Assembly: GCA_026419785.1 (NCBI GenBank)
Contig: JAODTK010002021.1
Span: 148,501-212,500, forward strand
Length of the DNA stretch: 64,000 nucleotides
Direction of reading: 5' to 3'
Origin: Sclerodactyla briareus
Lineage: Eukaryota; Echinodermata; Holothuroidea; Dendrochirotida; Sclerodactylidae
Below, piece by piece: positions 823 through 62,717 of the stretch. The translations under genes were made by a program, and so were the position numbers. How positions within the stretch are numbered: position 1 is the stretch's first letter; each line of letters opens with the position of its first letter. The notes under the pieces were generated by a model. The model ran no database searches and was not told where the DNA came from. It saw only the letters and a list, made by a program, of their open reading frames with translations.

Positions 823-1439
823 ATCACACATGTATACAAGCACATACAAATGCACTGGTTATATGACCGCAATAGATTTCTCTGACTGTTGCTAGGAATG
901 AAAGCCAATGTCCCTGCAGAAGTTACGATGTTTTTCTCTCAACAAATAATCACCTACACCCACCAACCCCACATAGCCAATCCTCCCACATAGAAGTTTT
1001 TTTTCTCTTCTTTGAAAAAAGAATATTGCAAGATCTGTGCAAGGACTGCAAGTGTGACATCAATTAGTACTGCATGATGGAAGTGGTTAAACCAGTGCCA
1101 ATTACACATGACAAACTTCAAGAGTGTTTAACTCTGTAACGGAAAGGCGTATGTACATCATGTTTGAACTGAAGCGTCGGTCTTCCTCCAGCTATTACTT
1201 TAGCCTCTTTATAATTAATCTTGCAGTTGTCCTTCAGGGTTTTTAATATGCTCTGTTCTATCTATGTAATCTGGTGCAATCGTGTTTGTTCGAACATCCA
1301 CAGACGAACAGCATCATCCAGTATTTGCCAGGTGTTGTGAGATAAACTAGAGCACCAATGGTGCTGTAGCTCAAAATGCACAATGTACTAAGACAAATGT
1401 AAATTATGTGACAATGTTCAAGATCATGAGGCCAAGTAG
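823..1439. other. No recognisable feature
   Basis: AT-rich sequence without a convincing reading frame, splice-bounded exon or known repeat signature. The short minus-strand open frame near 1,258-1,449 has no recognisable domain. Confidence 0.5.
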
Positions 1440-2930
1440 GCAGTTTCAAACAATGGCCTAATGTGCCCCTTTATGATTTTGACCATGCATGGCCCAAAAG
1501 CAGTCAATAAATATTCCACATGGGCTGCAGGGCCACAGTGATACTGGGCCTTGGGTCCTATATCCCTGACCACCCCAAAAGGTACAGCTATTAGACCATC
1601 ATTATGACTGAACTCAGCATTGTGCAACAGGATTTGTAGCGAGACGAGATTTTGCAGTATTTCATATAATGGGCCCTAGAGCTCAAAATTCCCAAGGACC
1701 TGCAATGACCCTCTACACAAGGACCGGTAAATGTAAGCAAATCAATTGGGTTGTGGGAGATCCTTTTCAAGTACCATTGTATGACATTTCATAAAATGGC
1801 CCACATGCCCACAGTAGGACTTGGATAAAAAAAAAAAAACCTGAACACCCCAAAGTTACGGATTTTAGACCATCAATATGACCGAATGTCAGCACTGTGC
1901 AGCCAAAATTCGTAAGAGGAGAAGCATTTCGTGTGATTCTACTTGATGGGCCCTAGGGCCAAAACTGGGCGTGGGCCCTAAATTCTGAGCACAATGAAGT
2001 TATGGCAATTGGACCACCATTATGACCACCATTAGGGCCACCAATTTCTAGGAGAAGCCGCATTCTGCGTGATTGCACTTGATGGGCCCTCAGGCCCAAA
2101 CTGGGCCTTGAGCCCAAAATTCCTGAACACCCTCAATGACCCTCTACCCAAAGACCTTTACATGTAAATTGAAGAACATCAATTAATTTTGGGGGGGGTG
2201 CATTTTAAGTACCATTGTGTGAAATTTCATAAAATGGGCCCACGTGCCACGTGGGACCTTAGACCGAAACTTCTGAACACATCAAAGGTATGGCTGTTCG
2301 CCCATCAAATTGATGAATTCAAGCACGTGCAAGGAAATTCAGTAAGAGGAGAAACATTTTGCTATTTCCACATGACGGGCAACACTGGGCCTTGGAACTA
2401 CATCCCTGGGCACCCTGAAGGTAAAGCTATTAGACATTATTAGACTGAACATCAACATGTGCAACAAAATTGTAAGAGATTACAAGATTTTGCAATATTC
2501 ATATTTAAGGGGTCGGGCCCAAATGGGCCTGGAGCCAAAATTCCTGAACACCCCCTATTGGCCTCTACCCACAGGGACCATACATGTAACTTTGAAGTAA
2601 AATCAATTGAATTTGTGGAAGGAGATGAATTTCAAGTACTATTGTGTGACATTTAATAAAATGTGGGAACTTGGCCAAAAATCCTGAACACCCCGAAAGT
2701 ACGGATGTTAGACCATCATATGACTAACATCAGCACTGTGCACCAAAAATTGGTAGGAGGAGATACTTTGAAATTTTACACATAATGGTCTATACTGCCC
2801 TTCATGACCTTTGACCTTGACATCACGAGGTCAAACATGTTCCATGGGTCAATAAACATTGTGTCAAGTTTGGTCGAAATCACATCACGAATGACGTTTG
2901 GGGGCCAAAAAATAGGCAATTGCTTAACAA
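1440..2930 (+). repeat. Diverged tandem array, period about 430 bp
   Basis: The landmark 'AAGTACCATTGTRTGACATTTCATAAAATGG' recurs near 1,768, 2,207 and 2,634. A companion 'ACATGTAA' box lies upstream near 1,730, 2,160 and 2,583. Interleaved are repeated phrases such as CCTGAACACCCC and GTGCAACAAAATTNGTAAGAG. Units differ by many substitutions and indels. The array ends in a stretch rich in TGACCT/AGGTCA half-sites near 2,808-2,835. Short open frames inside it are by-products of the repeat and should not be called genes. Confidence 0.7.
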
Positions 2931-3700
2931 CACACTGGATGGATACTGGAGCTAGATAGAGTGACATGCAGATTCCAATGCTCAACCAGCATAGCTGGTT
3001 TGAGCTACAAATACTTCTTCCAATAAGAATTCTTTGAGATTGTTATACCTCAGAGGCAGGTGGGAGGAGGCCGAAGCCGTAGTTTCTGGGAGCTTCCTCT
3101 GTTCTCCGCTGCATCTGAGCTGCGAGCTAAATGAACGACTGAGCTGAACAGGACACATGAAAGAAACGGGAATATTAATCGAGACAACGTACTGATACCA
3201 ATGATGTGACTGCATATTAATGTTCAAAACTACAAAGTACAAAACCCAATAATGCATGATGAGATGAGGTTCGTGTCATATCAATAATAATATTAACGTT
3301 ATGGGCTCATATCATAGCCCTTTACTACATTGAGTCATACTCAAAACCATTTACAGTTCACGATATTACAACAGTGACTCATCACACTCGTTTACTATAT
3401 ATATACAAACACAAACCTCTAGCTCTGCTACTCCCTGTGCACTATTCCATAACTCACTTAATCATGACTTTCTGGGGACTTTTCAATAGTGATGACACAA
3501 ACGGCACTCACTACTCTTCACAGTCACTACAAATACATGTGTGGCATGGGACACTCCAGGAGGGTGCCTTGCAACAGCCATGCGGCAGTCCCGCGGCTTT
3601 CATTGGGTTTCAAACTCGAAACTGACTGTTCGGCAGCCTGAAGCTTTAGGCAAATGAGCTCATCCGCCTTCAGAACAGCTTGGGGAAGTGGGAATCATTA
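2931..3700. other. No recognisable feature
   Basis: Two short open frames (minus 2,982-3,257 and plus 3,374-3,625) show no domain, conserved motif or splice context. I see nothing else of note. Confidence 0.5.
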
Positions 3701-13580: not shown

Positions 13581-14602
13581 ACCAGAACGCCGAAAGGCCT
13601 TAGTGATTCCTTGACTGGTTTCTGTCAACCCCATAGCCAGACATATGGACAAATGGGAGATATACCACCTCATTATAGGCAACATAACGTCTGACAAATT
13701 CCTCTCTTTACCAACCAACTATAGGGTTCCTGTACCTTGGTAAGAAAGTCACACTAAATTTCGGGTATTCAGCCTTGAACCTGGCAACTTAGATGACCTC
13801 CGACCTGCCCCAGAAACAATAGGGTTTCATGTACTCTCATGGGGAATACACAAACCAATATGAGCCTCATTCACCCCGCCCATTACCAAAAACAATAGGG
13901 TTTCTGACTACCCCCCCTAAGAAATATACACACCTCATTTCAACCTGATCATACCAACCGTTCTGGACTTATCGTGTTTACATGGTTTTCAGACTTTGAC
14001 CTCCGGTGACCTCAGATGACCTCTGACCGAACCCCAAACAAATAGGGTTCAATTACTCATCATGGGGACCAACATACCAAGTATGACTTTCATCCATCCA
14101 GGTGGGGTCAAGTTATCGTTTTTCAAGCCAAAATTGCTAACTATCATTTTTCACAAATTGTTTTAGTTTCGATCAAAATTCACTCCTGAACCTGACCAAA
14201 AGCACTAGGGTTCCTGTACTCCCCATAAGAAAGCTTTACACCTAATTTCACCTCGATCAACCAACATTATGGATTATCGTGTTTACAAGGTTGCAGACTT
14301 ATACCTCGGTGACCTCAGATGACCTCTGACCTGATCGTAAAACGATAGGGTTCATGTACTCATCATGTGGGACACACATACTAAGTATGAGTTTCATTCA
14401 TCGGGTGGGTCGAGTTATCGTGTTACACGCCAAAATTGGCCGAATAAGCGAATTTACCAATTTTCTATTTCGACCAAGTCACCCCGACCTGAACCAGAAA
14501 CAATAGGGTTCCTGTACTCCCCATCAGAAGCTATACCACCTGATTTCACTTGTTCAGCACCAACCATTCTGACTATCGTGGTTTACCAGGTTTTTCATAC
14601 TT

Positions 14603-14635
14603 TGACCTCTGGTGACCTCAGATGACCTCTGACCT
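14603..14635 (+). promoter_or_regulatory. TGACCT half-site cluster (DR4-DR4-DR1)
   Basis: TGACCT occurs at 14,603, 14,613, 14,623 and 14,630, giving spacers of 4, 4 and 1 base. TGACCT/AGGTCA is the half-site bound by many nuclear receptors. DR4 and DR1 are classical spacings for RXR partners and for HNF4/COUP-TF. The same cluster recurs in every unit of the surrounding array with small changes. Binding is inferred from sequence only. Confidence 0.35.
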
Positions 14636-15688
14636 GACCCCAAAACTCTAGGGTTCATGTACTCTCATGGGGAACACACACCAAGTATGAGCTTCATCCA
14701 TCCAGTGGGGTCGAGTTATTGTGTTTACAAGCCAACTTGGCCAAAAGATCGAATTTTCACAATTTTCTACTTTTTCGACGCAAATTCACTCCCGACTGAC
14801 CCCAAAACAATAGGGTTCCTGTAACTCCCCAAAGAAAGCTATACACCTAATTTCACCTGATCAGACCAACCATTCTGGACTTATCGTGTTTACAAGGTTT
14901 TCAGACTTTTGACCCTGGTGACCTCAGATGACCGCTGAGCTGACCCAAAACAATATTGTACATGTACTCATCATGGGGAACAACATAGCAAGTATTAGCT
15001 TCAATCCATCCAGTGGGGTCGAATTATCCCCGTGTTTACAAGCCAAAACTGGCCGAAATATCGATTTTTCACAAATTTTCTATTTTCGACCAAAAATTAA
15101 CCCCGACCGGGGAACCAAAAAAAACAATAGGGTCCGTACTCCCCATAGCAAGCTATACCTAATTTCAACTTGATCAGGACCAACCATTCTGACTTACTTA
15201 TCGTGTTTACAAGTGTTCAGACTTTGGACTCTTGGTGACCTCAGATGAACCTCTGACCTCCTGACCTCAAAAACGACAGGTTCATGTACTCATCATGGGG
15301 AACCACCATACCCAAGTTTGCGCGAATCCATCCAGGTGGGGTCGAGTTATCGGGTTTACAAGCCAAAATTGGCCAAACTATCGAATTTCACAAATTCCTA
15401 TTTTCGACCACAATTCACTCCTGACCTGAACCAAAAACAATAGGGTTCCTGTACTCCCCATAAGAAGCTATACACCTAATTTTCAAACTTGATCAGACAA
15501 CCATTCTGGACATTTCGTGTTTACACTGTTTTCAGACTTTCACCTCTGGTGCCTCAGATACCCTTACCTCACCCAAAAACAATAGGGTTCATGATACTCA
15601 TCATTGGGAACACACATACGAAGTATGAGCCTGACCTACCCGAGCCTGATCAAGTTATCGTGTTTAACCAAAAAAAAAAGCTGGGCGT

Positions 15689-15732
15689 AACACACACACA
15701 TACACACCACACAACACACCACACACACACAC
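15689..15732 (+). repeat. CA/CCA microsatellite
   Basis: A run of ACACAC interrupted by CCACA marks the right shoulder of the 308-bp element. The second copy has an equivalent run at 53,700-53,760. Confidence 0.9.
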
Positions 15733-15899
15733 GACGTGACGCATAGATTCCTCTGACTTCGTCAAGGAATCAAAAAAGTCAACGTGCACTCAGCGGGTGT
15801 GCTAATATTATCGAGAGTGTCTCCGCCCTAATTTTCCACGAATCACTGGAGCTTTGTTTTTATAATCTGTAGGGGGCAGAGAAGGAGGAAACCCCGATC

Positions 15900-27215: not shown

Positions 27216-28258
27216 AGGAATAGAGCATTCAATGACATTAGAAAAATTGATGATCTATTACATATCCCTCAATTCAGGCAAATACAGCACTAAAATCATT
27301 TTATTTGAGAGAGAAAATGGTGATCAGTCGGAGAATTTAAAAAAACGGCCGACGGTAACGACTGTATTCGTTCGCTGCAGGGACCTATTCCACGAAAGTA
27401 GGATTTTGATTTGACCTAATATATCGTTTCAACATTTTCTGCAATTGTATTTGTTTTTATGGTCAGCAACTACAATGGAAGAACTACAGTATGGGGCCGC
27501 TTCGTGGCAGGAAAGAGGATGAAAGAAGGCTGATGGGAGCAGTGGTCCAAAACTTGTTTGTAGAGGCCTGTGATATCGAATTTGACGGTTGGAACCTCCC
27601 GGAGGAGGATGGTGGTCCACAGCATCGAAGGCATTCCCTTCCAACCCAAATCCAGCTCGATTGTGCGTAGTTGGATGTGTGTAGGATGCTCTGGTCGATG
27701 TTATTACAAACGCAGATGCAAGACCCAGCAGATGGGAATGGCCGCCCCTATATAATGCGTTCCAGAGAACAAAATTGAGGGTTTTTTTTCGTGTTATGCC
27801 CCGGTCGGTAGGTAGACTGCATCATATCAACATTGCCAAGCAGCGATATTTACTCGAATTCGCCATTTCTGAAAGCACAAAGTACTATCTCCAGCACTTC
27901 TCTTCGGAAGAAAAAAGAAGATTGAAAACTGGAATGTAATTCTTCAACAGATCGCCGTGGAAGTAAGTTCATCCGCGGTGTTACTATTGCAGCTTTAAGA
28001 GAATGTTGGCACTGGGATCCTCCTCTAATAAGCGTCAAAATATCTTGATCACAGGAGTATAACAACCGTGACGTCATCGGCTCCCAATACCACGGGAACC
28101 AAGTCGAAGAACAGGGCTCAAAGCTGTAACGCAACAGCCGACACTCAGTGCGAACACAGGGCTGCAATGTTTCATTTACAACGTAATTACACTTGGAGTG
28201 CTCAGTTAAAACTAGGACACCGCCTGGCGTAGACCGCCAACTTGGATATCCCCACTTT
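27216..28258. other. Possible coding remnant at 27,440-27,670; otherwise nothing recognised
   Basis: One plus-strand frame stays open from about 27,461 to 27,669 and reads as a polar, non-repetitive peptide (segments WKNYSMGPLRGRK and NLFVEACDIEFDGWNLPEE). An overlapping downstream frame is Cys-rich (CVGCSGRCYYKRRC). I cannot assign either to a family. Composition is more protein-like than that of the surroundings, but there is no acceptor or donor support. Confidence 0.25.
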
Positions 28259-30206
28259 GTCAATAACCAGGTTATATCACAAATGGTGAACCATCCAGCC
28301 TTCACCGATATTCCATTCTCGATTACGGCCAGACAGAAAAACAGTTTTTGACCCCTATAGTGGACCTTGAATGACCTTTAATACATGCAAGTCAGTTTTT
28401 CATGAAAGTTGGAAATTCCATGTGATACATCCACTCCTAAGAGCATTTTGCATTCTAATGATCACGCCCAATGTTATTGCTTAAAAAGTATTAAAATCAG
28501 TTTTTGACCCCCTACCTATGTGACCTTTACTGACCTTCAATGGACGTGGCGGTTTTTATAAAATTGTACTCTCCATGTGATGCAATCCAACTCCTAGAAG
28601 CATATGAATTCCAATGAACGCGCCTATTGTTATTCGCGAAAAAAAAAGATAGAACTTTGACCCCTTGTAACTACCAAAGTATGCGTCCGATCGAAGCGGA
28701 ATTGGTTCCTCCAGAAAGCACACAAAAGATCTATCCACATATCAAAATAACCAGTTTCTATTTTTTTGCCGGTAACTCCTTAAAAAACACATTTATTCGA
28801 GACTCCACCTTTAACCACATGACAACCCGACAGAAGTCAGATTGAGGGTCAGATGTCACACACATGAAGGTCATCAATTATATCACAATGGTGAACTTCC
28901 AGACCTTCACAGATATTCAATTCTCGATATGCACAGAAAACAGTTTTTGACCCTGAAGTGACCTTGAATGCCTTTACTGGCATGGCAGTTCTTTGAAAAT
29001 TGTGACTCTCCTTGTGATAATTCACACTCCTAGGAGCATTTTGCATTCTGATGAACATGACGAGGGCAGTGATATTGCCAAAAGTAAAAAACTACTAAAA
29101 TCAGTTTTTGACCCCTACGTGACCTTTGATGACTTCAATAACATGGCGGTTTATAAAATTGTTACTCTTATGTGATGCATCCACTCCTAGAAGAAGATTG
29201 CATTCCATGAACACGCTATGTTATTGCGGAAAAAGCTCTTATAAATTAAACTTTGGACCCTTGTAACTACCAAAGTAGTGTCCGATCGCAGCGGGAGTTG
29301 GTCTTCTACATAAAGGCCCCAAAGGCTATCACAATATCCAAAAATAACCAGTTTCTATTTTTTTTTTGCCCGTACCTCCGTAAAATAAGCACATTTACCA
29401 GACCCAACCTTTAACCACATGACACCCGCAGAGGTCAAATTGAGGTCAGAGGTCACACACATGCAGGTCAACAATTATATCCAATGTGGAAAACCTTCCA
29501 GCCTTCACAGATTCTCAATTCTCCGATTATATGGCCCGAAACCGTTTCTGACCCCTTAGTGACCTTGAATGACTCTTCAATGACCGACATTCTCTATGAA
29601 AATTGTACTCTCATGTGATACATCCATCTCCTAGGAGCATTTTGCATTCTGATAACACGCCAGTGCTATTGCGAAAAAGTAACAAAATCATTTTTTGACG
29701 CCCTAAGTGACCCTTAATGACTTTTTAAGCAAAATATCGCGATTTGCCCTCGGATGACCTTGAAAATGCCGCTATTTTTTTCGGGACCAACGTTACCCCT
29801 AATAACCAATTTTTGTGCCACAATACGACATGTGTGCAAAACATCGCAAAAAGTACACAATTTGGACCTCGATGATCTGGCAAATGCACCATGTTTTTTT
29901 TTGGGACCAATTGCCACGTCCTGAGTACCAAGTTTCATGTAGATCGGACAAACTTGAAAAATTTTGCGTAAAATCACCAAATCAGAGGGCAGCAGATTTA
30001 CGGTAATACATTTTTGAAGCTCCGAGATCTCCATGGGGTCCACCCGTGTACCAAGGTTCAGCTAAATGGAGTAAGGTTGGAGAGTTATCGTGCTTAACGT
30101 CAAAATCTTCCGGCGGCGGACGCGGTGGCGGACGCGGCGGCGGCGGCGGACGCGGGTGACCGACGAAGGCAAAACCATAAGAATCCCCAAAAGTGGGGAT
30201 ATAATT
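28259..30206 (+). mobile_element. 600-bp-satellite element, copy A
   Basis: The family box CAGTTTTTGACCC followed by GTGACCTTGAATGACCTT recurs near 28,345, 28,941 and 29,540, a period of about 598 bp. Each unit also holds a related half-unit with GTGATGCATCCACTCCTAG and GGCGGTTTTTATAAAATTG. After the array comes a ~390-bp unique stretch. It is followed by a GGCGGACGCGG minisatellite (30,111-30,157) and finally a short hairpin ATCCCC/GGGGAT (30,183-30,200) with ATATAATT. The same plan, inverted, is found at 58,318-61,680. The left edge seems to start inside a unit. Helitron/HINE affinity is inferred from architecture. Confidence 0.7.
30111..30157 (+). repeat. GGCGGACGCGG minisatellite
   Basis: Nearly pure G/C sequence made of GGCGGACGCGG-like units in an AT-rich neighbourhood. 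It forces Arg/Pro-rich frames on the minus strand. Related tracts are at 11,840-11,890, 13,490-13,550 and, inverted, 58,384-58,432. Confidence 0.85.
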
Positions 30207-46929: not shown

Positions 46930-47919
46930 TTAATCACATTGGACTAATGCCACTATAACGTTTCCCCGTGAGTAAGGCACGTTCGCAATCAGCGGCATGG
47001 CGACTGCAACGCCAATCACCCACAACGACGGCAACAGTGATGACAATCCAGCGAAACTGTCCACGCATACCGGCATGAAACAATAACGCATATAGCGTTG
47101 TAAGAATGCCACAAGCAGCGAAGCCAGAATTTTCGCGACAGTGGACCAAACATGGTTGTAGGGATATATTTTCACCGCGGTTTCGTGGTGCCGAGGTGTC
47201 GTCCACCAGCCCGCACCGGCTTCTCATCTGAAAGAAGGGGAAATTACGCTAAACTCTGCGCCAGTGTGACTACTAAAAGACGAGTGTCTGTGGTACGGTC
47301 TATAACATAAAACAAACGATTACTTCTCTGGCCTCGAATCGCTGGCTTTCGCTTTTGATTTCTTTGTCTTTTTGGAATTGTCGTATGAGCATGGGGAGAG
47401 GCGGCGATAAGCTTAGGAGCCATACTTGTGATGATAGTAGCATGGGCCGTCTGGATCATGTTCTAAATTAGCCGTTTGTTTTGGTGAATTACGGCCCCCA
47501 CTTGGCGAGTTGCTGCGACTTCTCTGTTGACCCGTATTAGTCAGATTTTCCACCTGTTTAGTTACATTTGCAATGGCGATACGTATTTCGGCCAATTCTG
47601 GCTCATATGATGCGCCAACAGCCTGACACGTGTTCGGCATCATCAGGTGTTGAGTTGTGGTAGGTAGGCGAGTAGAATGTGGTACTGCTGGTGCTGGAGG
47701 TGTTAATATATTAGAAGTAGCAGTGACACAGAATGTAACAGATGGTGGGTTGAATGTGGTCACCTCCACGATCTTGTCTGCAATCCGGGCTAACAACTCC
47801 TCCAATTGACGGTTTTCACCGTGGATGCCAGAATCAGCTGGACGTTCTTGGGACGCTCTGGCATCGCAACTGACTGGGGAAGGAGACTTTGTACCAATCT
47901 GGAACTGGAGGGGCGTCAC
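46930..47919 (-). pseudogene. Ty3/gypsy gag-protease relic (CHCC-type gag)
   Basis: The minus-strand frame from 47,919 is a polar, Pro/Ser/Thr-rich gag with an acidic-to-coiled stretch (ELAEIRIAIANVTKQVENL). It ends in CYYHHKYGS, then a stop, then AYRRLSPCSY. C-H-(C)-C spacing of this type is the gag zinc motif described for the CsRn1 clade of Ty3/gypsy elements; here one Cys has become Arg. A shifted frame continues NRLFYVIDRTTDTR, the usual protease lead-in, and a further shift gives HTGAEFSV. There the catalytic Asp of DTGA is replaced by His. Beyond this, RGQFRWIVITVAVV resembles the post-active-site part of the protease. Stops, shifts and the lost Asp make it dead. No reverse transcriptase or LTRs were found. 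Confidence 0.65.
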
Positions 47920-47941
47920 GTCTGACTGAAATAATCATAGA

Positions 47942-50525: not shown

Positions 50526-51320
50526 GTAGAGGTCTAATGGGTGAGTTGACCTCTTCTGTAACATGGAAAGAAAAGTCTGATGTGTAATCTATCCTCTGCT
50601 GTTACATGGGAAGAGAGGTCTAATGGGTGAGTTGACCTCTGCTGTTACATGGAAGGAGAGGTCTAATGGGTGAGTTGACCTCTGCTGTTACATGGGAAGA
50701 GAGGTCTAATGGGTGAGTTGACCTCTGCTGTACATGGAAGGAGAGGTTTAATGTGTGATCTGACCTCTGCTGTTACATGGGAAGAGAGGTCTAATGGGTG
50801 AGTTGACCTCTGCTGTACATGGAAGGAGAGGTCTAATGGGTGAGTTGACCTCTGCTATTACATGGAAGGAGAGGTCTAATGGGTGAGTTGACCTCTGCTG
50901 TTACATGGAAGAAGAGGTCTAATGTGTGATCTGACCTCTGGTGTTACACGGAAAGAGAGGTGTAATGTGTGAGCTATCCACTTCTGTGACATGGAAAGAA
51001 AGGACTAAATGTGATCTGACCTCTGCTGTTACATGGAAGAAGAGGTCTAATGTGTGATCTGACCTCTGGTGTTACACGGAAAGAGAGGTGTAATGTGTGA
51101 GCTATCCACTTCTGTGACATGGAAAGAAAGGACTAAATGTGATCTGACCTCTGCTGTTACATGGAAGGAGAGGTCTAATGTGTGATCTGACCTCTGGTGT
51201 TACACGGAAAGAGAGGTGTAATGTGTGAGCTATCCACTTCTGTGACATGGAAAGAAAGGACTAAATGTGATCTGACCTCTGCTGTTACATGGGAAGAGAG
51301 GTCTAATGTGTGATCTGACT
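50526..51320 (+). repeat. 43-bp minisatellite with ~128-bp higher-order units
   Basis: The monomer is GAGAGGTCTAATGGGTGAGT followed by TGACCTCTGCTGTTACATGGAAG (43 bp). About 18 monomers are present. In the first 400 bp they are near-identical. From about 50,941 a trimer of distinguishable monomers repeats: GTGTTACACGGAAAGAGAGG, GAGCTATCCACTTCTGTGAC and GAAAGGACTAAATGTGATCT recur at 50,941, 51,069 and 51,197, a period of about 128 bp. Each monomer contains an AGAGGTC/TGACCTCT inverted pair. Confidence 0.9.
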
Positions 51321-52224: not shown

Positions 52225-53860
52225 CAGGGAGCAAAAGACTCCAGTGATTCCTTGACAAATTCCTACAACCTGAGACCAGATACAAGAACGATTGGGATAA
52301 TGGCATGATTAACACAAACTCCAGCTCGAAAGGACCAAGAGTTTTGGACTTGATGATGTCCACATTTTTTAGACTGACCTCTTCGACCTCAGATGACCAC
52401 CTCTGACCTGACTTCAAACAATACGGATCATGTACCCATCATGGGGACCCAAATAACAAGTATGAGCTTGATCAATCCAGGGGGGGTCGAGTTATTGTGT
52501 CCACAAGTCATAATATCAATTTTTCCCATTTTCCCTATTCTCATCAGAAAAACGTTCTGCTCTATCCCCCGAAACAATAGGGTTGATGTATTCCAAACCC
52601 TCCAGACAACCACTTTTGACCAATAGTGACCCCTGTTCTACACCAGAACGATGAACTTCTTGTACTCCCCATGAATGAGCAGTATGCCGAATTTCAGCCT
52701 GATCGAAATAAGCATTCTGGACTTATCGTATCCACGATTTTTTTAGACTTTGACTGACCTCAATGACCTTTGACCTGGCTTTAAACAGTCCTCATCATAG
52801 GGTACACATACCAAGTTGAGCTCAATCCATCCAGATGGGGTCAATGTGTCCAGAAACAAATTTGCCCAAATATCAGTATTTCACGATTTCCCCATTTTTT
52901 ACCGGAAGTGACACCCGCTCTACATTACAAAATAGGGTTCTTGTACTCCCCAAGAGAAAGCCGTATTTGAGAAAAGTCCGCTCGATGTACCAAGCATTCT
53001 TTGATGTTTTTTTTTACTTATTCGTGTACACAAGGCTGTTAGAATTTTCCACTCTGCTAACTTCAGATAACCTATGACATGACCCCAAAGCAGTTAGGGA
53101 TGATTGTTACTCATCAAGAGGAACCACATAAAAAGTAATGAGCTCAATCCATCAGGTCGGCGAGGTTATCGTGTCCACAAGCGGGGCGTCACAGGCGTCA
53201 CACAAATACACCAACAAAAACACGCACCCACCCACACACAACACACACACACGCGCACACCAAGCACACACACGCACCCCTCACACCACACATACTGTCT
53301 ATGGTGGGAACGACGGTGAGGGTTGTTTAAACACCCAAACGGAGGGAAAGCCCTGTTTCCAATCCATGCGTATCCTCCGAATAAGCGGAGATTCGACTCT
53401 TTACATGGCCACCGAGGTATTGCTTATATGAAAAGCTACCGCAGAAGCAAAGATGAAACGAGGTTCTGTAAAATTTAATTAATAACAAAACTTACACACG
53501 TGTGAAAGTGGTTAGACTTTCTACCGCATAACCGAAGAGTGCTCAAAATTGATTAAAAAGCACATTTCCACGAGAGGGGATGGTGCAGAAAGCGCCCTCA
53601 ATGCCCTTATTCTAACGGGTATTCCTGTTGTCGGTGGAACCTCGATTGACAGCTGTAAAACCTTATGTGTTACCTCGGTTCCACCATTTCCAAACGCACA
53701 AAAACACACCCACGCAACACCACACACACAAACCACACACACACACACCACACACACACTATCATAGCTGCAAAGAATCGTGGACTGTCGTCAAGGAATT
53801 AAAAAACCCCACCCTTCGATAATTTGCACTCAGCTAGAGGCTACAATGGGTCAAATCATT
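52225..53860 (+). mobile_element. 308-bp-family element, second copy
   Basis: The left edge reads CAGTGATTCCTTGAC. About three diverged units carry TGACCTCAGATGACC (near 52,387), ATCATGGGGACCCAAATAAC, GGGGGTCGAGTTATTGTG, AACAATAGGGTTGATGTA and AAATAGGGTTCTTGTACTCC. The right part holds two CA microsatellites (53,225-53,290 and 53,700-53,760), then GTCAAGGAATTAAAAAA and TGCACTCAGC, the same right shoulder as the first copy at 15,760-15,800. Shared edges make this a discrete mobile element, not just satellite spread. Confidence 0.7.
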
Positions 53861-57119: not shown

Positions 57120-57500
57120 GTCTCGAACACGAATTATGGCAGGAAGGTACACCGCCAAGTTTCAACGTGAAAGCAGTTCCAAAAAAAAAAAATACGATTC
57201 GAAATTTGTTATGTGAACTTAGTGACAAGAGGACACGACCATGTAAGCATGACACCATATTCGATACATTTCTCTATCATTGGAACGGACTAGAGGGTGG
57301 TTAACCATACTTCTTCAAATAAAATTAGATTTTTTTTTTCAAAATTAGCTCCAATGCTATCTTGTGTTAGCGATTCTCAAAAGTGCATTGAGTGTCTGAT
57401 TAATTATAATGCACTAGATTCAGTCCACCATTTCGATTGAGCCGATTTTGGTCTTCGCTAATCCTTATTTGATATTATGGACAGATCCACGATAGAGAAG
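57120..57500 (+). repeat. Duplicated segment, uninterrupted copy (empty site)
   Basis: TCTCTATCATTGGAACGGACTAG, GTGGTTAACCATACTTCTTC, AATTAGCTCCAATGCTA and GTGCATTGAGTGTC match 58,208-58,317. The continuation TTAATTATAAT...TTCAGTCCACCATTTCGATTGAG matches 61,681-61,730. In the second copy about 3.36 kb lies between these two halves, so this copy shows the site before insertion (junction near 57,396-57,401). Confidence 0.75.
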
Positions 57501-58059
57501 AATTCCGACGGAGACTGACAGGGGTCCAGTAATATAAGAAAATCAAAGTGTGAGAGAGCCAATTGTTTAACAATTGAAACCTGTCAATTGGGGTAACACG
57601 TATGTCTCAGTGGCAAGGTAAGGAATCACTGAGCATATATCACAAACAATTTACCTTTTCTTTCCCCTAGCGATGGATATGATACGCTAAATTTATGTAC
57701 GGCGTGTGATGCCACACCAGTGCGATTTAAAAAATGTGTACGCTAATTTTAATCAGAGGTGACGGCGCCTAAACTACGGGAAATTGGTGGGAAAGTAGTA
57801 GAGTGAAGGAAAGTACAAGTTGTCCTCTGTTGTCACCTCTGGCGGTGGAAATTAGCTTGGTCGGCAGAGATGATTATAAAGAATTGTAATTTCGAATCTT
57901 GTACTTTTCTCGGATTTGTAGGAGTCGTGAAATAGAGTACAGGACCCCTGTACTTTCCGACACGGGACTACAAGGGAGTATTAATAGGCTGTAGATCGAC
58001 ATTTCACATTCTCCCGCCCTTCTTCACATGGGGGCTAGGGTGAAGTTCCGTCAAAACGT

Positions 58060-58317
58060 CAGGCACTGTGGACGACCCACCTCTGCGTGAATTGGCCAAA
58101 TAACTTCGATTCAAAAGTTGTTGTGGGAGGAACGTGGTAGAGTAGACATGACATGCAACGCTGACATGACAAATATCGATAACATAGAGGTATCTTGGGA
58201 TTTTTTCTCTATCATTGAAACGGACTAGCAGTGGTTAACCATACTTCTTCAAGAGAAAAAAAACTTGCAATTAGCTCTAATGCTAGTTGTGGGCGAGTCA
58301 GTAAGTTCATTGGAGTG
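58060..58317 (+). repeat. Duplicated segment, left half of interrupted copy
   Basis: The left half of the second copy of the 57.12-57.50-kb segment. It ends at GGAGTGT, directly before the inserted element. Confidence 0.7.
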
Positions 58318-61300
58318 TAAGTTATATCCCGCAACACTGTAAGTGTTCGGGTATTATGGTTTTGGCCGTTGTGTGTTGTACCTGTGCCCGCCGTCTCCGC
58401 CGCAGCCCGCCCGACGCCGCCCCGCCGCCGGAAACTTTGCGTTAGCGATCTCATTCTTTTCAAAAACAACTTGATACGATTGACCCACACTTGGTATACA
58501 CCTGTCCGTTATGAGTGTAAAATCTCGGATAAGTCGAAAACTGGGCATATCGCTATATTTGTGGACTCATTTGCAGGTTTTAGACAAAATTTTCAAGTTC
58601 GTGCGCTTACACGAAACGTGGTGGTTGGGGTAGTTGTTGGAGGCCGAAAAACATGTGCCAATTTCAAGGTCATCAGAGGTCAAGTTGCATTTTTTTTGCC
58701 AGTAGCCTAATTATTAGCAGAATGTATGTGATATTCAAACTCATTGGATTGTCAGGAAACTTTGGTGACTAGGGCCAACTTCAGTGCGATGAATGTATAA
58801 TGTGGCCGGGTCAAGGAGGTCATTGCATGACTAATTTGCATAATAGTTGGCCTATTAGCAATAAGGCAAATTTATAAACTTCGTTGGATTCTCACGAACG
58901 TGGAGAGTAGGACCTTCTAACAGTGCCGATAATTTATTTCAATTGCATGAAATCATGAAGGTATATGTGTGTTTAATTTAATGTAATCGTGTAGATAATT
59001 AGATAATTAAGCAATTATTTTCTCAATTTTAGGGATTTTGACGAAACCTTGTGAATGGACTACTACCAGTCCTGATAAAGTCATTCAATAGCCAATACAC
59101 TGAGGTAAATTTTTGGGACTAATTTGCATTTAGGTTGTTCCTATCATCAAAATGAGAGTTTAATTAATTACTTTTTTTCGCAATAACATGTGACCTGTTC
59201 TTGGAATCAATATGCTCTAGGAGTGGATGCATCACATGGAGTGGGGTAACAACAATTTCCATAAAAACCGCCATGTCCATTTGAAAGGTCTTAAAAGGTC
59301 CGACTTATGGTCCAAAACCTGATTTTAGTACTTTTTATGCAATAGCACTGGGGTGTGTTCATCAGAATGCAAAAGGCTCCTGTGAGTGGGATGTTCTCAC
59401 ACACATGGAAGTAACACTTCTCAAGAAACCTGTCATATCACTTTAAAGGTCATTCTGGTCCACTTAAGGGTCAAAAACGGTTTTTTGGCTTTAATCGTAG
59501 AATTGAATATCTATGAAGGCTGTAAGGTTCACCATTGAGATATAACTGTTGACCCCCTGCGTGTGACTTTTGACCTTAATTTGACCTCGGTCGGGTTGTC
59601 ATGTGTTAAAGGTCGAATCTTGAATAAATGTGATTTTTAAGGAGTTACGGGCAAAAAAACGTATAAACGGTTATTTTTGGATCTGTGATAGAGCTTTGGT
59701 GGTGCTTTATGGAGGTAACAACTCCCGCTTCGATCGACAGCTTGTCCTTTGGTAGTTACAGCGGGGGTCAAAGTTCACTTTCTACCTTTTTTTTGGCAAT
59801 ACCATTGGACATGTTCATTTGAATGCAATATGCGTCTAGGAGTTGATGCATCACATGGGTTTAACAATTTTCACAAAAACCGCCATGTCATTGAAGGTCT
59901 AAATGTCCCTTAGGGTGAAAAGAAAATACTGATTTTAGTACTTTTCGTCAATAGCACTGGGTTTGTCATCAGAATGCAAAATGCTCCTAGGAGTGGGATG
60001 TATCACATGAGAGTAACAATTTCTCATAAAACTGTCATATCATGAAAGGTCATTTGGGGTCACTGTTAAAGGTCAAAACTGTTTTTTTGGCTATACTCGG
60101 AGAATTTAATATCTGCGAAGGCTTGATGGTTCACCATCGTGATATAACTGTTGACCTGCATGTGTGTGACCTCGACCTGATTGGGACCTCTGTCTGGCGG
60201 TCATGTGGGTGAAGGTCGAATCTTGAATAATGTGCTTATTTAAGAGTGTACTTATACGGGCAAAATACAATAAGAAAATGGTTATTGTGGATTGTGATAG
60301 AGCTTTGTGTGCTTTAGGAGGGCACCCAACTCCCGCGTCGATCGGACTTCCTTTGGTATTTACAAAGGGTCAAAGTTCAGCTAAAAAAGCCGGGATCAGG
60401 AAGGAGGGACGGGTCCAACTTTATACCTTTTTTTGCATAACATGGACTGTGTCATTGAATGCAATATGCTTCTAGGAGTGATGCATCACATGGATGGTAA
60501 CAATTTTCACAAAAACCGCATTCCATTGAAGTCCATTAAGGTCACTAGGGGTAAAAAAACGATTTTAGTACTTTTTCGGCAATAGCACTGGGGTGTGTTC
60601 ATCAGAATGCAAAGGCTCCTAGGAGTTGATGTATCACATGGAAAAGTAACAATTTTTAATAAAAACTGTCAAATCATTAAAGGTCATTTGGGGGTCCACT
60701 TAGGGGTCAAAACTGTTTTTTTGGCTATATCGAGAATTGAAAATATCTTCGAAGGCTGGATTGTCCCATTGTGAGATAATTGTTGACCTGCATGTGTGGT
60801 GACCTCGACCTGCATTGACCCTGTCGGGTGGTCATGTGGGTGAAGGTCAAATCTTGAATAAATTGGCGTATTTAAGGAGTTACGGGCAAAAAAAAATAGA
60901 AACTGTTATTTTTGGATCTTTATTGAGCTTTGTGTGCTTTATGGAGAGAAAACAACTCCCGCTTTTCGATCGGGACATTTACTTTGGTAGTTACAATGGT
61001 CAAAGTTCAATTTTTATACCCTTTTTTTTCGCAATAACATTGGACATTTCATTGAATGCAATCATGCTCTAGAGTGGATGCTCACATGGAGTGTAACAAT
61101 TTTCATAAAACCGCCTTGTCTATTGGAGGTCCTTAAAGCTTTAGTGGTCAAAAACGATTTTAGTACTTTTTGGCATAGCACTGGGTTGTTGTTCACAGAA
61201 TGCCAAAAAAAAAAATGCCCTAGGATGGATGTCTCACATGGAGAGTCACAAATTTTATAAAAAACTGGCCATATCATTAAAGGTCATTCAGGTCACTGTA

Positions 61301-61680
61301 GGGGCAAAACTTTTTTTTTTGCTATACGGAGAATTGAATATCTGCGAAGACTGGCTGGTTCACCATTGTGATATAATTGTTGACCTGCATGTGTGTGACC
61401 TCTGACCTGAATTTACCTCTGTCGGGTGGCCATGTGGTTAACGGTCCGTAATCTTGAATAGTGCTTTATTTAGTGACGCACCTTGTCCGGGGGCTGTAGG
61501 GGTGCCTCAGACAATTAACACGTTCCTTATGGAATGACCCATTTACCTGTCTACGTTGTCGCTTCACAATCCTATAAATGTCGTCTATCCACGAATATTG
61601 TCCGGTTCATGTGCCCAAATGTCTGGAATAAGAGATGCGGGGGGATATCGTCTGGCGGTTACCCGCCGACATTCCTAGTT
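58318..61680 (-). mobile_element. 600-bp-satellite element, copy B (inverted)
   Basis: In element orientation this runs from 61,680 to 58,318. It comprises a ~200-bp leader, then about four units of the 600-bp satellite (landmark GCAATAACATTGGACATGTTC near 59,181, 59,794, 60,430 and 61,030). It continues with a ~600-bp stretch alignable to 29,720-30,110 of copy A, the G/C minisatellite (58,384-58,432), TATGGTTTTGGCC, and a terminal hairpin CCCG-AACACT/AGTGTT-CGGG at 58,328-58,351. Each 600-bp unit contains two related halves (AAACCGCCATGTC and AAACTGTCATATC versions). No transposase frame is visible. Its borders are defined by the empty site at 57.4 kb. Confidence 0.7.
58384..58432 (-). repeat. 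GGCGGACGCGG-type minisatellite, inverted
   Basis: CCGCCGTCTCCGCCGCAGCC and the following bases are the complement-strand counterpart of the tract at 30,111-30,157, at the same relative position in the element. Confidence 0.75.
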
Positions 61681-61800
61681 TAAATATATAATATGATAGA
61701 AGTTCAGTCCACATTTTCGATTGAGCGATTTGGTATTTTCACTGATTCTATTTTGATTCTTACTGCATGACAGATAGACCGATCTAACTAAAATAAAGGT
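61681..61800 (+). repeat. Duplicated segment, right half of interrupted copy
   Basis: TAAATATATAATATG...AGTTCAGTCCAC and TTTCGATTGAGCGATTTGG match 57,401-57,460. Similarity fades after about 61,780. Confidence 0.65.
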
Positions 61801-62717
61801 TTCGAAAGTCCTATGTATGGCGGCAAATAGGTTCCAGCAGCTCAATCGAGGTTTTCGATTTGCCCACGGATACGTCACTGTCCAATACATTCATCAAATT
61901 CCCTATGTATCACTAAAACCCACTTTCACGCTAAACGTTCCCCATAGCCCGTGTGGCGTTCCATATCTTTGAAGAATTGCGCAAGTTTATCACTGCATTG
62001 CGCAATTTATCGTACGATGGAAGGTACAATATTTTTCAACGGCACTTGCCGTAGATAATTATCATTCGTTCGCATCGCACTAGTGTGACACCATCCCTCA
62101 GAAGATCGTGAAACTGCGGCGCTATCTTTTTTAATGCTGGAAGGATTCATGAACGCCATCCAGCACCATCTATGCTAGTTACAATCGTACATGAAAGCTG
62201 GACATGGTTTTTGGGTATCCCACTGTAGCTCTCGGTGATGATATCGAAACATCAACATCTTGACTCGATGACATCCAAATTGTCAATAACAAACCTTTAC
62301 CAACCAATTAACCTGTCGCTGGCATTCCGCTCCGTGGATGATACCATCGCCCATCCTTTTTCACCAATCGGACACATCAGTGCTATTACAATTGTTTTTA
62401 CTGGAGATCAGGTTACTTTAATGTGGTGTTAGTTAAATTGTGCCCTGTGATTATTTCTTTCTTATTCGCAATAAATCCTAGTAACGAATTCCCATCTGTA
62501 TAACAGGGGCGAATATGGGGTGGGGCACTGTGTGGTGTGACGACCCCTGAATATATTGGAGAAGTCGATCCCGTAGCGTCAAAAAGTCGTCTTTGAATCT
62601 GCCAAAGCCATTTTTTAAGGACCTCCAAGATGGATGTTCGTGAACGAAGAATCCATTATAAACTGTATCAAGTGGACCGTCTCATTACATAAGCCACCTA
62701 GGAAAATTGGCAATCTC
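61801..62717. other. No recognisable feature
   Basis: No domain-bearing frame or repeat match. The sequence is ordinary AT-rich intergenic DNA. Confidence 0.5.

Follow-up and report, generated by a model that had tools for sequence, protein, structure and literature searches.

A satellite-carrying insert of probable HINE/DINE-1 type and its empty site in the holothuroid Sclerodactyla briareus

The window analysed here, a stretch of 64,000 nucleotides from contig JAODTK010002021.1 of Sclerodactyla briareus, includes a duplicated segment of about 300 bp, one copy of which is continuous and the other split by an insert that bears a satellite array. The insert (copy 1) is one of many copies of a kind of element already known from flies, mites and oysters, and a divergent member of the same family (copy 2) lies elsewhere in the window. 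The features that concern them are the following.

57,186 to 57,486, + strand: empty (unfilled) copy of the duplicated segment, about 300 bp, with the insertion point at about 57,398-57,400 (joined-flank alignment)
58,098 to 58,321, + strand: filled copy, left half (joined-flank alignment)
58,322 to 61,678, + strand: inserted element, copy 1, TT...CTAG, 3,357 bp (from the empty site and the 5' and 3' ends of genome copies)
58,323 to 58,333, + strand: 5' subterminal inverted repeat, TATATCCCGCA in copy 1 and TATATCCCCGCA in many genome copies
58,328 to 58,351, + strand: 5' hairpin; the subterminal repeat encloses its 5' arm
58,387 to 58,431, + strand: CCG-rich minisatellite, 65 nt inside the 5' border of the insert
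59,172 to 61,458, + strand: satellite array made of four A-A'-B1-B2 units (about 150+160+128+158 bp), B2 being absent from the fourth
61,636 to 61,648, + strand: 3' subterminal inverted repeat, TGCGGGGGGATAT
61,650 to 61,670, + strand: 3' palindrome GTCTGGCGG-TTAC-CCGCCGAC, followed by CTAG at 61,675-61,678
61,679 to 61,775, + strand: filled copy, right half (joined-flank alignment)
28,212 to 30,204, - strand: copy 2, divergent family member with about 2.5 satellite units

A sequence-only reading of the window had proposed that the second copy of the duplicated segment is split and that the array within it moved as a block. The split is real. When the continuous segment was aligned with the split region, as that reading had suggested, the junctions could be defined and homology crossed them: the joined flanks (58,000-58,322 plus 61,681-61,900) scored 196 against the continuous copy, the maximum in 300 dinucleotide shuffles being 42, while the left flank alone scored 135 (shuffles 37 or less) and the right flank alone 68 (shuffles 42 or less). 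Identity between the joined flanks and the empty copy is 237 of 272 aligned columns (87%, gap columns excluded), and the alignment continues across the junction, where a single base of the empty copy is left unpaired. Outside the duplicated segment the two places resemble each other at shuffle level, their scores being reached by 154 of 200 and 105 of 200 shuffles. The duplication and its split thus stand, with limits shifted by the alignment from 57,120-57,500 and 58,060-58,317 plus 61,681-61,800 to 57,186-57,486, matching 58,098-58,321 plus 61,679-61,775. The two segments are homologous and their flanks belong to a different repeat from the insert. A third partial copy of the flank segment, of about 90 bp and 74-76% identity, is found on contig C2905; the flank is therefore itself repetitive, which makes the empty site a paralogous rather than a demonstrably allelic one. 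At this one filled and empty pair, no target duplication is visible beyond a possible TT. With TT at each border, a 2-bp duplication of a target TT would look the same as none, and such a duplication may have accompanied the insertion.

The insert had been placed at 58,318-61,680. The empty site does give both borders to within a few nucleotides; because it alone leaves those few ambiguous, the exact ends, 58,322 and 61,678, were set by the ends common to other copies. Borders so drawn agree with the 5' border of genome copies, with the 3' end of complete copies and with the divergent copy in the window. From 5' to 3' the order of parts is TT, TATATCCCCGCA, a hairpin, the CCG minisatellite, the satellite units of about 600 bp, TGCGGGGATATA, a GC palindrome and CTAG|TT. 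The 600-bp repeats and the minisatellite were correctly described in the earlier reading; its single terminal hairpin has given way to potential hairpins near both ends. The 5' hairpin of copy 1 has an energy of -8.3 kcal/mol as DNA (z -4.5), equalled by none of 200 shuffles, and its 3' hairpin is the centroid structure (-8.0 kcal/mol), not the minimum-energy fold, with z -1.8. The subterminal inverted repeats, which are degraded in copy 1, are unequally placed: the 5' one is separated from its end of the element by 1 nt and the 3' one by 30 nt. Copy 2 has subterminal repeats ATATCCCCAC/GTGGGGATAT that are perfect over 10 nt and a 5' hairpin with z -2.9; its 5' module reaches at best 68.5% identity to other copies (aligned over at least 300 bp). 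As to the 3' hairpins, 13 of 200 shuffles were equally stable for copy 1 and 23 of 200 for copy 2, and by folding energy neither stands out significantly from its shuffles.

Searches for coding capacity and for known RNAs were negative within their scope. None of the 15 frames of at least 60 residues in the insert had a Pfam match over the cut-off. Below it there were two matches in these 15 frames and two in five of the 11 frames of copy 2, with E values of 0.006-0.1, none of them to a transposon protein. Of the 74 stop-to-stop frames in the window with at least 90 residues, 10, all of them outside the insert, were compared with Pfam and gave two weak matches, neither over the cut-off. The window has no Rfam match at the gathering threshold and no tRNA in a tRNA scan, and exact-pattern scans of viral and prokaryote contigs, a set that possibly excludes the species' own genome, gave 0 matches. 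The sequence AGGTCA/TGACCT, presumably a nuclear-receptor-like hexamer multiplied by the satellite, occurs 21 times in 58,322-61,678 and 12 times in 28,212-30,204, where the means of mononucleotide shuffles are 1.3 and 0.9.

We searched the species' own genome (a 319-Mb assembly of 3,171 contigs) with the 5' module, 58,318-58,700. There were 1,187 first-look candidates, and scoring of the best 40 yielded 41 matches; the other 1,147 were left unscored and no copy number is derived. Among these best candidates 40 of the 41 matches are strong, namely the window copy itself plus 39 further copies that match at 77-81% identity, and the single weak one (69%) adjoins a strong match. Nineteen of the 40 strong matches begin exactly at 58,322 and 39 of the 40 within 58,318-58,330, the remaining one starting at 58,373. 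We examined 31 copies, those at 29 other loci and both in the window. The common 5' end reads TTATATCCCCGCAACACTGTAAGTGTTCGGGGATATTATGG, followed by CCG repeats, and complete copies end in TGCGGGGATATATACGTCTGGCGGTTTACCCGCCCGACATTTTCTAG, with variations, followed by TT. TT lies directly 3' of CTAG in all six complete genome copies and in both window copies, the first search for complete 3' ends having required CTAGT. All 25 of the 31 copies whose alignment reaches the first base have the 5' TT, a result partly built into the alignment, and in these the preceding base is A in 21, T in two and C and G in one each, compared with a background A content of 29% in the window. Subterminal inverted repeats TATATCCCCGCA and TGCGGGGATATA are present near both ends in genome copies, and the 3' palindrome sequence is found in both window copies and in the complete genome copies. 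Folding of the first 40 nt (RNA energies) was compared with 200 mononucleotide shuffles: for 23 of the 31 copies no more than 10 shuffles were as stable, and for the other eight more than 10 were.

The satellite unit of about 600 bp is composed of four monomers, A-A'-B1-B2, whose strings were composed by eye from units in the window. The relation between A and A' is clear (score 195, against at most 35 in shuffles); that of the other monomer pairs is unconvincing, the lowest being A'-B2, whose score was reached by 7 of 300 shuffles. In 28 of the 31 copies the array starts at positions 1-4 of A, about 810-880 bp from the 5' end of the element, the exceptions being L020, L030 and copy 2 of the window. 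The 3' end was seen in eight copies (L013, L015, L030, L036, L037, L040 and both in the window). In six of these the last recognised monomer ends at the end of B1 or up to about 20 nt beyond it, and in the other two, L015 and copy 2, it ends inside B1. L037 has some 550 bp without recognised parts between its last monomer and its 3' end. The number of units is one in L013, L036, L037 and L040, four in copy 1, where the final quarter of the fourth unit is missing, and about 2.5 in copy 2. One copy, L053:950-1745, on the same contig as copy 1 and 117 kb from it, has both modules and no array; its 3' end reads CTAT, followed by TTTT. A tandem duplication of 1.27 kb (L053:1560-4090), 99.5% identical, spans this 3' end. 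The shared starting phase, the variable number of units and the array-free copy together indicate that the array is a regular passenger of the element and that its length varies. Since array length differs between copies, both transport and change of length inside the element occur.

Among the 5' modules (640 bp) of the 31 copies, 436 of 465 pairs align over at least 300 bp, with a median identity of 81% and a best pair of 91.5%, and L020 is the closest relative of 21 of the 31. From these sequence comparisons the divergence looks like that of an old, star-like burst, in a sample that is biased, as only the best-matching candidates were fetched. Poor sequence is an unlikely cause of the divergence, given the near-identity of the tandem duplicate beside the array-free copy.

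HINE/DINE-1 elements are described as the non-autonomous partners of Helentron rolling-circle transposons and carry satellite arrays in oysters; the two sources report the same part order as here, no modification of the target site, TT borders, paralogous empty sites as a test of borders, and satellite cargo (PMC4067079, PMC7492417). The features expected of HINEs are found in this family: subterminal inverted repeats of 11-15 bp near both ends, a 5' inverted repeat complementary to the subterminal repeat, a short palindrome near the 3' end and no coding capacity, together with a short-repeat tract and central tandem repeats, which are frequent in HINEs. There is likewise no target-site duplication and there are at least two T at each border, as read from one empty site and with the TT ambiguity described above. 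By description, a close parallel is Cg_HINE of the Pacific oyster, which has a 5' subterminal repeat with a complementary inverted repeat, a microsatellite, a variable spacer and a satellite array, followed by a 3' subterminal repeat and a 3' palindrome, and which occupies T-rich sites, with empty sites used to fix its borders (PMC7492417). In contrast to Cg_HINE, the minisatellite here is CCG-rich and A precedes the 5' TT. Monomers in the oyster arrays measure 160-180 bp (PMC8268682), whereas the array here has a higher-order unit of about 600 bp, with a clear relationship confined to A and A'. The DINE-1/HINE elements of Drosophila, mite and Culex, again likened by description, have the same part order, TT at both borders, central repeats, and a subterminal repeat that encloses the 5' arm of the inverted repeat (PMC4067079). 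Two differences from the published descriptions are that the 3' subterminal repeat, 30 bp from the end here, is 38-60 bp away from it in mite HINEs, and that HINE insertion sites are T-rich, whereas the site here mostly reads A|TT. In CTAG and A|TT the family resembles the proto-Helentron of Phytophthora, given as having 5' TT, 3' CTAG and an A^T target in the same source (PMC4067079).

A candidate source of the proteins was sought in the same genome. The Helentron-type Rep domain PF14214 gave three matches on two contigs and none in 14 control genomes. Marks said in PMC4067079 to be diagnostic of Helentrons are an S between G and P and, nearby, F or Y followed by W, L, Y or K and then R. One Rep fragment reads FVRIEFQQRGSPHAHI, with the S between G and P present but with F-V-R; a second ends in FYRVEFQQ, with F-Y-R present, and its frame stops before the key S. 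Both fragments are partial. No Helentron with the termini of this family was found around either fragment: the 19.8 kb around one of them contain a single family end, a 3' end that lies 8.6 kb upstream and is unlinked, and around the other there is none. As the family ends are unlinked to the Rep fragments, we infer Helentron-driven rolling-circle movement of the family from its anatomy. The insert is very probably a rolling-circle transposon of the HINE/DINE-1 type that is non-autonomous and owes its movement to Rep-helicase-endonuclease proteins supplied in trans by a Helentron.

The family also has in common with canonical Helitrons a 3' palindrome, a CTRR-like end and an A^T-like target, so that the insert might instead be a derivative of one of these (5' TC, 3' CTRR, A^T target). 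Its CTAG fits CTRR, the palindrome lies just upstream, and the insert mostly has A on its 5' side and has T on its 3' side. Our initial reading, made from CTAG and the hairpin, was of this kind and was dropped on account of the 5' TT and the subterminal repeats. The element begins with TT, not TC; its 12-bp subterminal inverted repeats, 5' hairpin and minisatellite are marks of HINEs in PMC4067079 and PMC7492417; and the sole complete Rep motif has the Helentron S. Derivation from a canonical Helitron is accordingly unlikely.

The empty copy could once have been a filled duplicate that lost the element cleanly, the order of duplication and insertion being unrecorded in the sequence. Such a loss would have to be exact to a few nucleotides, and clean excision is not usual for rolling-circle elements; we regard it as very unlikely, and in either order the block still behaves as a unit. 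That the insert is a cut-and-paste transposon or MITE, for which its inverted repeats near both ends and the possible TT duplication might be cited, is highly improbable, as the repeats are subterminal and unequally placed and no target duplication longer than TT exists at the one empty site. Growth of the satellite in place within a local tandem duplication, the "empty" copy being a diverged duplicate, would suit the locally duplicated flanks and the variable number of units but has almost no chance of being correct, since homology crosses the junction, borders are shared, and copies of the 5' module occur on many contigs with differing flanks. The empty site, the shared borders and the genome copies together bear out the earlier proposal that the array moved as a block and did not merely grow locally.

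For the HINE/DINE-1-type element that we favour, Rep would nick at the 5' TT, one strand would be peeled off while being copied, and copying would halt at the 3' hairpin and CTAG. The freed strand would then be joined to the target between its A and TT, carrying the array with it. Whole units of about 600 bp could be gained or lost by slippage or unequal exchange, a process that would keep the array edges in phase. The combination of HINE inner anatomy with proto-Helentron-like ends (5' TT, 3' CTAG) and an A|TT target might, tentatively, mark movement by a Helentron lineage with Helitron-like targeting, the edges of the array keeping their phase while unit number varies, as though rolling-circle copying reset the length of the array; we put this forward as a possibility that is rather doubtful. 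Satellites of such elements are scattered over the oyster genome, according to PMC8268682, and the present family would be a clear example of satellite dispersal as cargo of a rolling-circle element, not by growth at each site. With array edges in phase, a variable number of units and an array-free copy, the timing of the length change is testable in this genome.

The region contains further elements of similar layout, two of which are the following.

1,347 to 3,010, - strand: member of a second family with HINE-like anatomy, GTAGCTCAAA/TTTGAGCTAC, both hairpins, its own repeats at 1,543-2,797, and CTAGTTT
13,605 to 15,777, - strand: member of a probable third family, read by eye, with hairpin GATTCCTTGAC, an AC/GT microsatellite, a 307-bp satellite and matching GTCAAGGAATC

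A strict scan for the HINE layout (5' TT, a subterminal repeat with a local inverted repeat, a matching 3' repeat, a hairpin and CTAGTT) gave six hits in the window, all of them belonging either to copy 2 or to the element of the second family; the combined yield of ten block-shuffled windows was a single hit. Over 184 kb of the contig, including the window, three places were found, compared with 0, 0, 0, 0, 1 and 0 in six shuffles, and the third of these (6.7 kb) is ambiguous, as are two places around the Rep fragments. Mutation of its 5' repeat hides copy 1 from the scan. The third family is absent from the strict scan and its 3' border is undefined; related pieces lie at 52,385-53,806 and at about 30,400 (+ strand). 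A first layout scan, which gave 13 hits on two strands compared with 0-6 on one strand in ten shuffles, was discarded as too loose. The results of the strict scan indicate that HINE architecture with different satellites recurs in the region.

A frame at 47,416-47,934 (- strand; YYHHKYGS), which had no Pfam match, is presumably Gag-like and possibly part of an LTR retrotransposon. A frame at locus L009:2132-2791 resembles what we take to be a helicase of parvovirus type (SF3), possibly an endogenous viral fragment. At 50,528-51,319 the window also contains a 43-bp minisatellite with higher-order periods of 128 and 256 bp.
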